A DNA stretch of 33,304 bases from a virus. The stretch lies in IMG/VR virus record IMGVR_UViG_3300044701_001399, positions 1-33,304 of that record; one strand, 5' to 3'. Positions 15,678-18,458 of the stretch are shown piece after piece. The position numbers and the translations under genes are program-made. The stretch's first letter is position 1. Every line of letters starts with the position of its first letter. The notes beneath the pieces are model-generated. The model had not been told where the DNA came from. It worked only from the letters and a program-made list of their open reading frames with translations, and made no database searches.

Positions 15678-15830
15678 ATGGAAGCACTCATTCTAACCTG
15701 TCTTCAGGCGCAGTTGATTGCAGGGAGAATCTATAAGACTGATATTCCTGCTCAAGCAAAGAATGATTTAATCTGGGAGTTAAAACAAATCTCCCCGAAA
15801 GAGTGTAAGATAGACGCAAAAGCCGACTGA
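15678..15830 (+). CDS. Small peptide downstream of the riboswitch-like element (50 aa)
   Basis: MEALILTCLQAQLIAGRIYK then a charged tail ending KIDAKAD. The N-terminus is hydrophobic enough for a weak membrane association. Its position, 13 bases after the RNA element, fits the small peptides that give the Downstream-peptide class its name. Expression would then respond to glutamine, a nitrogen-status signal. Confidence 0.65.
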   Translation: MEALILTCLQAQLIAGRIYKTDIPAQAKNDLIWELKQISPKECKIDAKAD

Positions 15831-15869: not shown

Positions 15870-16028
15870 ATGTCACAAGCAACCTATAGAGGGTGTAAGT
15901 ATAATACTGACACACCTAAGCAAGAATATCAGCACTGGTATTCACAAACACATGCACCAGCACATCCTACCAACACCTATCGTGGTGTTGCCTACCGCCC
16001 CTGCAAAAATCAGGAGGTAGGAAAATGA
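15870..16028 (+). CDS. DUF4278-like small protein (52 aa)
   Basis: AAGGAG (15857-15862) sets the start. Two copies of a TYRG-x-x-Y motif are seen (ATYRGCKYN near residue 5 and NTYRGVAYRP near residue 36), the hallmark of the DUF4278 family of cyanobacterial and phage proteins. Function unknown. The stop overlaps the next start (ATGA at 16025-16028). Confidence 0.68.
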   Translation: MSQATYRGCKYNTDTPKQEYQHWYSQTHAPAHPTNTYRGVAYRPCKNQEVGK

Positions 16029-16111
16029 ACTGGTTGAATCTAATCCGTAAACAGATTGAAAAACAAAAGAGACTAGAGATTGCCCAATATCATATGGCAA
16101 CTCTTGGATAA
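16025..16111 (+). CDS. Mini-protein (28 aa)
   Basis: Excellent ribosome-binding site (AGGAGG at 16012-16017) and overlap with the upstream stop. The peptide MNWLNLIRKQIEKQKRLEI followed by AQYHMATLG is an amphipathic basic helix that could lie on a membrane or bind RNA. It is the last gene before a strong terminator. Confidence 0.65.
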   Translation: MNWLNLIRKQIEKQKRLEIAQYHMATLG

Positions 16112-16115
16112 AGCA

Positions 16116-16139
16116 AAGGGGGCATATGCCCCCTTTTTT
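16116..16139. terminator. Strong bidirectional rho-independent terminator
   Basis: GGGGGCATATGCCCCC, a perfect palindrome, flanked by AAA and TTTTTT so it works on both strands. It ends the rightward riboswitch operon and the convergent leftward micro-ORF operon. Confidence 0.92.
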
Positions 16140-16305
16140 ATTTCCTTAGGGTATGTAAGTATTCAATCATTGCTTCCCTGATATACATTAGCTCATGGTA
16201 GCATTTCTGGTTGTGAGCACACTGCCTAAGTTCGTGGTCTGGTTTATGTACACTCTCAATAAACAAATCTAATCCTCTGTTCCATTTTTCGTTGTCTTCA
16301 GTCAC
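16138..16305 (-). CDS. Small hypothetical protein with GTG start (55 aa)
   Basis: GTG at 16305-16303 overlaps the upstream gene's stop by eight bases and has GGAGG four bases before it. The product begins TEDNEKWNRGLDLFIESVHK and is soluble, with HELRQCAHNQKCYHEL in the middle. There is no earlier ATG in frame. The stop lies inside the terminator. Function unknown. Confidence 0.58.
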   Translation of the reverse strand: MTEDNEKWNRGLDLFIESVHKPDHELRQCAHNQKCYHELMYIREAMIEYLHTLRK

Positions 16306-16618
16306 GTTGCCTCCAGTCTTCGGGTTTATCTCCAGTAAAGAAATCTACAATATCATCAACGCTTTCAAATCTTCCGATACCTTTTGCTTCGTGTCCGATG
16401 CCACCGATATCAAGTTGATTTAAAAAATCATCCATATCTCCTTCTTGCATGTCTGGGTTAGCAGCAGTTCGTCTTGCTTGCCTTAGCATGGTGGCAGCAG
16501 AACGATTTGCTTTTGCCAACTTCTCTGCCCAAATCATGTCTGATAGATCTACAGCTTCTCCTTTTACAATCTTATCACAAATAGCCTGTAATCTCAGGCG
16601 ATACTGAGTAGAGAGCAT
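16298..16618 (-). CDS. Hypothetical protein (106 aa)
   Basis: A soluble protein with a basic helical N-terminal half (RLRLQAICDKIVKGEAVDL, AATMLRQARRTAAN) and an acidic C-terminal half (MQEGDMDDFLNQLDIGG, VDDIVDFFTGDKPEDW). The longest gene of the leftward micro-ORF operon. Looks conserved among cyanophages; function unknown. Confidence 0.75.
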   Translation of the reverse strand: MLSTQYRLRLQAICDKIVKGEAVDLSDMIWAEKLAKANRSAATMLRQARRTAANPDMQEGDMDDFLNQLDIGGIGHEAKGIGRFESVDDIVDFFTGDKPEDWRQRD

Positions 16619-16643
16619 AGTATGTATAGCAGTAATACTATAT

Positions 16644-16733
16644 TTAGTGTGGGTATGCGTTGTTTAATCCCCAGTAAATAAACAATCCTATTGCTCCAAA
16701 CAAAGAGATACTAGTGAGAGCTAGGTGGTTCAT
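16644..16733 (-). CDS. Membrane mini-protein (29 aa)
   Basis: MNHLALTSISLFGAIGLF then IYWGLNNAYPH: essentially one transmembrane helix. It starts 22 bases inside the preceding ORF, after GAGGAAA. Support is the hydrophobic helix and the tight chain of overlaps. Confidence 0.5.
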   Translation of the reverse strand: MNHLALTSISLFGAIGLFIYWGLNNAYPH

Positions 16734-16845
16734 CTTTCATTTCCTCGTATGCTAGTTTTAAGATGTAATAGATGACATAGGCAGTGCCTGCTAATCCTAC
16801 TCCTAGAATAGTAAACACCCCCCAAGGTAAGTTACTCATACTCAT
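16711..16845 (-). CDS. Membrane mini-protein (44 aa)
   Basis: One membrane helix (VFTILGVGLAGTAYVIYYIL) with a charged tail (YEEMKDEPPSSH). GAGG precedes ATG at 16845; an alternative ATG is at 16839. Overlaps the previous and following ORFs. Confidence 0.52.
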   Translation of the reverse strand: MSMSNLPWGVFTILGVGLAGTAYVIYYILKLAYEEMKDEPPSSH

Positions 16846-16942
16846 CCTCGTATGTAGATGGCTCTTCAAATAACTCATCCATTTTTTGTTGGAATACTTT
16901 CTCTTGTAGCTCTTGTAAGTCTTCTTCGGTAAGAGTTATCAT
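16832..16942 (-). CDS. Acidic mini-protein (36 aa)
   Basis: MITLTEEDLQELQEKVFQQK then an acidic tail (STYEDEYE). Starts by ATGA overlap with the upstream stop and has AAGGA just before. No membrane segment. A short acidic helix of this type could bind a host protein, but nothing identifies a target. Confidence 0.52.
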   Translation of the reverse strand: MITLTEEDLQELQEKVFQQKMDELFEEPSTYEDEYE

Positions 16943-17118
16943 TTGTCCTTAAGTAATTCTTCTATTCTTTTACGCATGTTTGTGCTATCCTGCTTGAGAT
17001 AATCTCTCAAAGAATAACCACGCTGCCCTTTCATAATACATGTTCCTTGGTAGAACATGGTGGCAGCAAACACTAGCAGGAAAACTATTCCTATTATTTC
17101 AGGGTAATGTTGAGCCAT
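16939..17118 (-). CDS. Small membrane protein (59 aa)
   Basis: An N-terminal membrane helix (EIIGIVFLLVFAATMFYQG) then a basic cytoplasmic tail (RDYLKQDSTNMRKRIEELLK). Start 25 bases inside the upstream gene. Composition and layout are those of a real small membrane protein. Confidence 0.6.
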   Translation of the reverse strand: MAQHYPEIIGIVFLLVFAATMFYQGTCIMKGQRGYSLRDYLKQDSTNMRKRIEELLKDK

Positions 17119-17312
17119 GGTAGTAGAGGTGGTATTACTCCAACGAGTCGAAGAAGACCCTCAGCAAAAAGTGAAAGAACAACCCAACCAACACACATTG
17201 AAATAATCGAAGCATTACGATTGTGTCTTCGTATGGCATCATCGATCATCTCCTGACACTGTTTCTGTGTCACTAGATGGTCTGGATCTATTTGATTCAT
17301 TCGGTGGCTCAT
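17094..17312 (-). CDS. Small membrane protein (72 aa)
   Basis: A soluble N-terminal part (PDHLVTQKQCQEMIDDAIRR) and a C-terminal membrane segment (ISMCVGWVVLSLFAEGLLRL and beyond). Start may be M1 (17312) or M5 (17300); neither has a clear ribosome-binding site. Function unknown. Confidence 0.6.
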   Translation of the reverse strand: MSHRMNQIDPDHLVTQKQCQEMIDDAIRRHNRNASIISMCVGWVVLSLFAEGLLRLVGVIPPLLPWLNITLK

Positions 17313-17412
17313 GGATTTTAGCGATACCTATGATGGGAAACATAACAAGGGCAAAGCAAAGGATGCCCAAACTGACTGGATTATTTAAGATTTCAACTAT
17401 CAGATGAGTCAT
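17239..17412 (-). CDS. Possible small membrane protein (57 aa)
   Basis: MTHLIVEILNNPVSLGIL continues into a membrane helix (CFALVMFPIIGIAKI), then a hydrophilic Ser/Glu-rich tail. It starts 20 bases inside the upstream gene and shares 74 bases with the next gene in another frame, so the tail is the less certain part. Confidence 0.45.
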   Translation of the reverse strand: MTHLIVEILNNPVSLGILCFALVMFPIIGIAKIHEPPNESNRSRPSSDTETVSGDDR

Positions 17413-17605
17413 TTTTCTTTACATGGATGTAACATTCAAGTGGTTTCTGAGTTTCACTATCAAAGTTTTGGTCTAGATAGACACAAAGTTTTTGAATGAT
17501 TTTGATGTATTCGTCATGCATCCATTCACTACCAGTTTCGTGATAAGCATAATGCTTACATGCTGTGATGATGCGATTGACATCTCTGCTTGATAGGTTA
17601 TACAT
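17393..17605 (-). CDS. Hypothetical protein (70 aa)
   Basis: Soluble, with LSSRDVNRIITACKHYAYHE and a polar C-terminal half (DQNFDSETQKPLECYIHVKK). Overlaps the next ORF by 20 bases. Function unknown. Confidence 0.62.
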   Translation of the reverse strand: MYNLSSRDVNRIITACKHYAYHETGSEWMHDEYIKIIQKLCVYLDQNFDSETQKPLECYIHVKKNDSSDS

Positions 17606-17609
17606 AAGT

Positions 17610-17780
17610 TTACTCTTTATACATTATTATGTCGCCGTGTTTTCTATGAAAATCGAGGTGTTTTTTACCCCAAGGTATCACCCTCCATTCAGTTTTTCCA
17701 TTCCAAAGTAAAAGGCAGATATGGATGTATCTCATACACCTGTAGTATAACGAGCTATTTAGATGGGTGCAAATACTCAT
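17610..17780 (-). CDS. Possible first gene of the leftward operon (56 aa)
   Basis: Starts at ATG 17780 after AGGAAA. Sequence includes YYRCMRYIHICLLLWNGKTE and VIPWGKKHLDFHRKHGD, rich in Trp/His/Cys. It ends four bases before the next start. No membrane segment is clear. It sits back to back with the hli promoter. No homology is known to me. Confidence 0.42.
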   Translation of the reverse strand: MSICTHLNSSLYYRCMRYIHICLLLWNGKTEWRVIPWGKKHLDFHRKHGDIIMYKE

Positions 17781-17860: not shown

Positions 17861-18064
17861 ATGACTGTAACAAGCAATGAGTTTGGTCAACAGAATATGT
17901 GGGCAAAAGAGCCTGCTATGGTTTACCAAGAATACAATCGGAAAGGTCTTCTGACCCCTATGCAAATGACGGAGATGTACAATGGACGCTGGGCAATGGT
18001 CGGCATTATTGCTGGTCTTATTTCTTATGTCAGCACTGGCAAACTCTTCTTCGGAATCTTCTGA
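17861..18064 (+). CDS. hli: High-light-inducible (Hli/Scp) protein
   Basis: 67 residues with the chlorophyll-binding motif E38-x2-N41-G-R-W-A-M (TEMYNGRWAMVGIIAGLISY) on a single transmembrane helix, as in phage Hli proteins. It would sit in the thylakoid membrane and protect photosystems by binding chlorophyll and dissipating excess energy during infection. It follows its own strong promoter. No ribosome-binding site is evident beyond an A-rich leader. Confidence 0.93.
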   Translation: MTVTSNEFGQQNMWAKEPAMVYQEYNRKGLLTPMQMTEMYNGRWAMVGIIAGLISYVSTGKLFFGIF

Positions 18065-18072
18065 CTGAGGGC

Positions 18073-18101
18073 TTGACAATGACTTCGCTTTTGTTTACAA
18101 T
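18073..18101 (+). promoter_or_regulatory. Sigma70-type promoter TTGACA-17-TACAAT before petF
   Basis: -35 at 18073-18078 and TACAAT at 18096-18101, 17 bases apart. A start near 18108 would give petF a leader of about 57 bases. It overlaps the 28-residue ORF, so the two readings compete. Confidence 0.6.
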
Positions 18102-18165
18102 GACTTCCGTTGCCTTCTTCGTATTGCTGGCAATCTCTGTAGAAAAACTTTGTGAGACTTATTGA
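18079..18165 (+). CDS. Possible single-helix membrane peptide between hli and petF (28 aa)
   Basis: [20 protein letters not shown] then VEKLCETY. A single membrane helix, the size of small photosystem or cytochrome b6f subunits, with its stop overlapping petF (TGATG). Against it, the start sits inside a promoter-like sequence; only transcripts from the hli promoter would carry it. No specific photosystem family matched. Confidence 0.38.
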
Positions 18166-18458
18166 TGGCTACCTATTCCATTACCCTTCAATCCCCTGAC
18201 GGCACTGAGCAAACTATTCAGTGCCCTGATGACCAATACATTCTTGAAGCTGCTGAAGAGGCAGGTGTAGACCTTCCTTCGTCATGTAAAGCTGGTGCTT
18301 GCTCTGCTTGTGCTGGCAAACTTGTTAGCGGCACAGTTGATAATGAGGAACAATCTTTCCTTGATGATGATCAACTTGCTGATGGTTGGGTGCTTACTTG
18401 CGTAGCATATCCAACTAGCGACTGTGTAATCCTCACTGAACAGGAAGAAAACCTGTGA
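18165..18458 (+). CDS. petF: Plant-type [2Fe-2S] ferredoxin
   Basis: 97 residues with the canonical cluster ligands C41, C46, C49 ([13 protein letters not shown]) and C79 (VLTCVAYP). It accepts electrons from photosystem I and can donate them to bilin or nucleotide reduction and other reactions. The ATG at 18165 is preferred over the TTG before it. Overlaps the following ORF by four bases (GTGA). Clearly host-derived. Confidence 0.96.

Follow-up and report, generated by a model that had tools for sequence, protein, structure and literature searches.

A leftward micro-gene operon of a cyanophage encodes a predicted viral counterpart of the one-helix NDH-1L subunit NdhQ

What does a virus gain from a row of ten minute leftward frames, and are frames this short genes at all? 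The original prediction regarded them as one set acting on the host envelope or membranes, possibly in superinfection exclusion or in modification of the photosynthetic membrane. The stretch of DNA analysed here (the window, 33,304 bases) carries nrdA/nrdB, cpeT, hli, petF, psbA, phoH, a gene for a large virion protein, and 12 tRNAs. Its closest isolates are the freshwater Synechococcus phages DSL-LC03 and DSL-LC02 (Kyanoviridae), so that the window is very likely part of a freshwater cyanomyovirus genome. The features of the operon and its surroundings are as follows.

17744..17773, minus strand: sigma-70-like promoter of the operon, TTTGCA-18-TATACT
17610..17735, minus strand: o1, soluble 41-aa protein; no PHROG or Pfam match
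17393..17605, minus strand: o2, soluble 70-aa protein; phrog_5190
17239..17412, minus strand: o3, 57-aa single-helix membrane protein; phrog_1184, family in 296 cyanophage records
17094..17312, minus strand: o4, 72-aa membrane protein; phrog_1096 / T4-GC 246
16939..17118, minus strand: o5, 59-aa single-helix membrane protein with a charged C-terminal tail; phrog_1953
16832..16942, minus strand: o6, acidic soluble 36-aa peptide; phrog_2505 (weak)
16711..16845, minus strand: o7, 44-aa single-helix membrane protein; phrog_25130/814
16644..16733, minus strand: o8, 29-aa single-helix protein, NdhQ homologue according to profile comparisons
16298..16618, minus strand: o9, soluble 106-aa protein, N-terminal half predicted helical; phrog_507 / T4-GC 49
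16138..16305, minus strand: o10, soluble 55-aa protein with a GTG start; phrog_495, homologue of phage Syn9 gp58
16115..16137, no strand assigned: hairpin terminator, common to the operon and converging plus-strand micro-genes
17861..18064, plus strand: hli, high-light-inducible protein, divergent neighbour of the operon
18162..18458, plus strand: petF, ferredoxin, on the divergent side past hli

All ten micro-ORFs were found on the minus strand where they had been placed, with two starts corrected. The start of o1 is ATG 17735 (41 aa), not 17780, because divergent relatives also begin at the equivalent of 17735, some with GTG, and a promoter-like sequence conserved in close relatives, TTATACTA, lies directly upstream; o7 starts at 16845 or 16839, not at 16878. 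On the coding (leftward) strand, 98.2% of the length is occupied by ORFs of at least 29 aa, versus 47% on the opposite strand, and in 300 dinucleotide shuffles such ORFs covered 34 ± 12% (maximum 67%). Conservation of each frame in cyanophages, one of the checks that had been proposed, was found throughout, as tblastn recovered homologues of all ten in other cyanophages or viral contigs. The pooled pN/pS values of o1 to o10 were 0.20, 0.13, 0.43, 0.24, 0.17, 0.13, 0.33, 0.36, 0.23, and 0.16, computed with homologues chosen by tblastn and protein similarity, which biases toward low pN. Codon comparison with distinct homologues also revealed a third-position excess in all ten frames, a signal that, at pS near 0.5, this selection bias does not account for. 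The random substitution patterns named beforehand as counter-evidence were not seen, pN/pS staying between 0.13 and 0.43. Moreover, the two other frames contained stops in nearly all homologues and the coding frame almost none. Taken together, these results show that each of the ten is a protein-coding gene.

Clear hydrophobic helices (Kyte-Doolittle maximum over 19 residues, 1.7–2.5) are present in o3, o4, o5, o7, and o8, in agreement with the expectation of at least five membrane proteins, and o1, o2, o6, o9, and o10 are without such a helix. The expected overlaps of 4–25 nt were found for most pairs, but o3 and o4 overlap by 74 nt, and o1/o2 and o8/o9 are separated by gaps of 4 and 25 nt. 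The common terminator was likewise only partly as anticipated: the hairpin is present, but its U-run is on the plus strand and it also serves converging genes. Three conserved plus-strand micro-genes (15678-15830, 15870-16028, and 16025-16111; 50, 52, and 28 aa), detected in 52–65 loci each, run toward the operon and end at this hairpin. Past its other end, hli and petF are transcribed away from the operon. Between these two genes lies a 28-aa single-helix ORF (18079-18165, plus strand) with 16 distinct variants in the fetched phage loci at identities up to 100%; profile searches gave it no host match and no PDB match. Going by the sigma-70-like promoter only, the operon would be of early type.

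The ten genes do not always occur as a complete set. Two related contigs (L053 and L054) carry all ten in the same order with one insertion, and other contigs have nine of them or subsets such as o1-o7-o8-o9, o4-o5-o6, and o4-o7-o8-o3. The gene set is a modular cassette whose members are gained and lost singly, not one fixed unit.

Scans of Pfam, NCBIfam, and PHROG gave no named family for any of the ten proteins, all PHROG matches being to families of unknown function. The profiles of o3, o4, o5, and o7 yielded only implausible matches among PDB sequences and none in Pfam or NCBIfam, so that homology to known photosynthesis subunits was not found for these four in the three collections; nor did profile searches of cyanobacterial genomes detect a host counterpart for o3 or o5. 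Two identities considered for o7 were rejected, NdhP because neither o7 nor its host relatives match any NDH chain, and NdhQ at an HHalign probability of 9%. The AlphaFold model of o9 is of low confidence (pLDDT 70).

The one protein with a recognisable counterpart of known role is o8 (MNHLALTSISLFGAIGLFIYWGLNNAYPH), whose family of 28–33 aa has invariant F12, F18, WGL, and AYP. The only PDB match of its profile (E ≤10) was NdhQ of Thermosynechococcus elongatus NDH-1 (E 2.9), in an ungapped alignment of 24 residues that reaches the NdhQ C-terminus. Since an E value of 2.9 is not significant alone, the identity was tested independently by searching the same 194 cyanobacterial genomes separately with the T. 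elongatus NdhQ fragment and with the o8 profile. Six genome places were common to both searches, including canonical NdhQ genes with MSDLNRGIMKF starts. The o8 profile reached E values down to 5.8e-9; in searches of the same kind, control profiles of o3 and o5 gave essentially nothing below E ~1e-3, and that of the 28-aa ORF gave none. HHalign aligned o8 with NdhQ, represented by 16 non-picocyanobacterial sequences found solely via the T. elongatus fragment, at a probability of 94.2% (E 1.2e-7), versus 0.4%, 9.1%, and 0.9% for o3, o7, and o5.

Picocyanobacterial NdhQ, of ~30–40 aa, terminates in WGLxNAYP and is bridged to T. elongatus NdhQ by a gene that both queries matched; an example, MNVLIWGVVLLGGIGVFIVWGLTNAYPTPA, agrees with o8 in length and ending. 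The order ribF-ndhQ-thiE occurs in three host loci (flanking gene names by inspection). Residues I15, W21, L23, A26, and Y27 are invariant across phage and host sequences, and o8 has the single helix and the C-terminal W-x-L-x-x-A-Y. The N-terminal segment MSDLNRGIMKFxGADxP is absent from o8 and from picocyanobacterial NdhQ too, and so cannot serve as a phylum-wide mark of the family. Single-sequence similarity over these 29 aa is weak, and it is on profiles and intermediate sequences that o8 is judged to be a homologue of NdhQ, the single-helix NDH-1L subunit. PetN (29 aa, WG motif) was considered and rejected, as the profile search gave NdhQ and no PetN. As a host-gene homologue whose contig also carries psbA, hli, petF, cpeT, and genes for phage structural proteins, o8 qualifies as a photosynthesis auxiliary metabolic gene.

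Among complete phage genomes, ndhQ was found in 4 of 26 isolates, namely DSL-LC02 and DSL-LC03 (Dishui Lake), S-SRM01 (Serangoon Reservoir), and the sponge-derived Sf-FP1, and in 10 of 14 long IMG/VR contigs; it was not found in the marine water-column isolates covered. The gene order is psbA-psbD-o4-o5-o6-ndhQ in DSL-LC02, where ndhQ lies inside an unannotated gap, o4-o5-o6-ndhQ in DSL-LC03, and o4-o6-ndhQ in S-SRM01. Within 1.5 kb of o8, o4 was present in 55, o5 in 52, and o6 in 55 of 62 distinct loci, fractions that are inflated because loci were fetched partly via these same three genes. The o8 gene is usually linked to o4-o5-o6.

The o4 family was found in 267 phage records, which are without exception from cyanophages or of uncultured marine origin. 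Inspection of 24 isolates (mostly, not all, picked blind to context) placed o4 within ~1 kb of petE, PTOX, or psbD in ten: S-RIM8, S-E7, S-RIM2, P-HM2, DSL-LC02, S-CAM3, ACG-2014d, S-CAM22, S-TIM61, and S-CAM1, several of which share the same g16-g17 position and are therefore not independent. Other phages have o4 near gp32/gp53, the major capsid gene, tRNAs, or pstS, so the link to photosynthesis genes is not universal. Among IMG/VR loci, psbA, psbD, petE, or PTOX was within 2 kb in 8 of 69 anchored on o4/o5 versus 0 of 91 anchored on o9/o10. Several cyanophage records label o4 homologues as 'gp7' or 'baseplate wedge initiator' (L164:4007-4225, L357:1489-1719, L363:1465-1689); for a 72-aa membrane protein identity with T4 gp7 is most unlikely, and the name looks like a propagated error.

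Conserved single-helix homologues of o4 (56 aa) and o7 (33–38 aa) reside on the chromosomes of six or seven picocyanobacterial genomes, that of o4 on Prochlorococcus-like chromosomes, and these host proteins match the same PHROGs as the phage proteins. In two of the host loci each (among L446-L450, L452, and L453-L458), the o4-like gene is ~1 kb from a peroxiredoxin gene and the o7-like gene is near a TM2-domain gene. True chromosomal homologues of o4 appeared only in the search of the cyanobacterial phylum; a scan of genome contigs returned mostly marine MAG contigs resembling misbinned phage. The o4-family contigs assigned to Nonlabens, Euryarchaeota, Rhodopirellula, Gammaproteobacteria, and Microbacteriaceae (L369-L373, L375-L380) are probably misbinned or contaminating cyanophage contigs. 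In a contig (L374) of the Prochlorococcus single-cell genome AG-418-C09, o4, o9, petE, and heme oxygenase occur together, which is phage DNA in the SAG.

Given that o8 is a predicted NdhQ homologue, at least part of the gene row probably acts on the photosynthetic membrane. In NDH-1L, NdhP and NdhQ lie on either side of NdhD in the distal membrane arm, touch both NdhD and NdhF, and stabilise the complex (PMC6992706, PMC12038448); ferredoxin is the electron donor of NDH-1 (PMC6992706), and infection data from P-HM2 led to the proposal that electrons are rerouted into cyclic flow, passing through NDH or straight to plastoquinone (PMC5082946). The reading that we favour, and hold to be reasonably probable, is an early-type auxiliary micro-gene operon of a freshwater Synechococcus cyanomyovirus, from which at least o8, probably o4 and o5, and possibly o7 would insert into the host thylakoid membrane. 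Phage NdhQ would join the distal membrane arm of host NDH-1L, at the NdhD/NdhF junction clamped by NdhP and NdhQ, and would keep the complex assembled during infection, sustaining cyclic electron flow and ATP supply. The position of ndhQ, divergent beside petF and hli, fits such upkeep of NDH-1L for ATP supply. The membrane site of o8, its part in NDH-1 assembly, and the physiological effect are here predicted from sequence. The other membrane proteins, o3, o4, o5, and o7, would likewise serve thylakoid complexes, as additional one-helix subunits or as regulators, a thylakoid role being the most economical guess for them, and the soluble o1, o2, o6, o9, and o10 would be co-transcribed passengers. 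Of the earlier idea of photosynthetic-membrane modification, the part concerning o8 gains support from its homology, and the part on o4 and o5 becomes plausible through their repeated placement near petE, PTOX, psbA, and psbD. A bolder version would make o4-o5-o6-o8 (with o7) a set of one-helix subunits that the phage carries for NDH-1 or for a thylakoid supercomplex associated with it, some of them not yet recognised in picocyanobacteria, with o4 and o7 as the viral forms of two picocyanobacterial thylakoid proteins still to be described; this is speculative and in our judgement unlikely.

The ten genes may instead share a transcript and nothing more, as a hyperplastic ORFan region of unrelated niche genes in which o8 is the sole photosynthesis gene. 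The single gain and loss of members between relatives speaks for this, as do the S-PM2 ORFan region, whose loss as a whole in culture brought a fitness gain and whose ORFs shuffle with little synteny (PMC4503421), and the known hyper-variable g15-g18 region of cyanomyoviruses (PMC2984593). However, o4, o5, and o6 accompany most of the 62 o8 loci, a sample partly anchored on these genes, and o4 occurs with o8 in three isolates independently; we regard the explanation as possible, though on the unlikely side. A different function for o8 itself would be that of a decoy, which fills the NdhQ site without a needed part, destabilises NDH-1L, shuts down respiration or the carbon-concentrating NDH-1 forms, and favours linear flow and PTOX. 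That o8 lacks the cytosolic MSDLNRGIMKFxGADxP segment found at the N-terminus of most NdhQ, and that PTOX is present within 1.5 kb in 13 of 62 o8 loci, would suit a decoy; but host picocyanobacterial NdhQ is equally short and lacks the same segment, so o8 resembles a normal picocyanobacterial NdhQ, and we consider a decoy highly improbable.

Small early-type membrane proteins of T4-like phages are commonly of the anti-competitor or envelope type, and the modular, shuffled cassette would agree with single-helix plasma-membrane proteins that block DNA entry by superinfecting phages or delay lysis, like T4 Imm. Against this stand the homology of o8 to a thylakoid subunit, the picocyanobacterial chromosomal homologues of o4 and o7, and the lack of any described family: the proteins match unknown-function PHROGs only and nothing in Pfam or NCBIfam, although the diversity of exclusion proteins often defeats searches by sequence. 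The superinfection exclusion or general envelope effect that had been envisaged thus found no support and seems to us quite doubtful. An operon in which phage NdhQ keeps NDH-1L assembled remains our preferred reading.

Photosynthesis is reprogrammed by cyanophages, and as to the electron route that they favour, a phage NdhQ would point directly to NDH-1L-dependent cyclic flow. Genes as short as o8 escape annotation and are not represented by models in Pfam, NCBIfam, or PHROG, so the photosynthesis genes of phages are probably undercounted. For o4, a widespread unnamed cyanophage protein, the tie to the ndhQ module and to a conserved Prochlorococcus gene offers a handle on both.

Compared with known systems, the cassette recalls the S-PM2 ORFanage (PMC4503421) and the g15-g18 hyperplastic region (PMC2984593), likewise made of shuffled small unknown genes, and in several marine phages o4/o5 sit between g16 and g17 of the latter region. 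The S-PM2 ORFan genes had no database orthologues at the time, whereas most genes of the present operon fall in existing PHROGs. Cyanophage psbA, psbD, petE, petF, PTOX, and hli occur in the same cassettes, o4/o5 adjoining petE, PTOX, and psbA-psbD and hli/petF adjoining the operon, but these are recognisable host genes and o3 and o5 are without a detectable host counterpart. The putative phage NdhQ shares with cyanobacterial NdhQ (PDB 6khi/6l7o/6hum chain Q) one membrane helix followed by a W-x-L-x-x-A-Y C-terminus, and is as short as picocyanobacterial NdhQ; it differs from most cyanobacterial NdhQ in lacking the N-terminal MSDLNRGIMKF segment and in a phage-specific F-x5-F pattern. No mention of a phage ndhQ was found in the open-access papers searched. 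The closest precedents are phage ndhI, ndhD, and ndhP, already reported from metagenomes and P-TIM40 (PMC10452541), which are likewise phage-borne NDH-1 subunits, proposed to alter NDH-1 electron flow; those are known from other phages or metagenomes, whereas the predicted ndhQ belongs to an operon of micro-genes that has petF and hli as neighbours.
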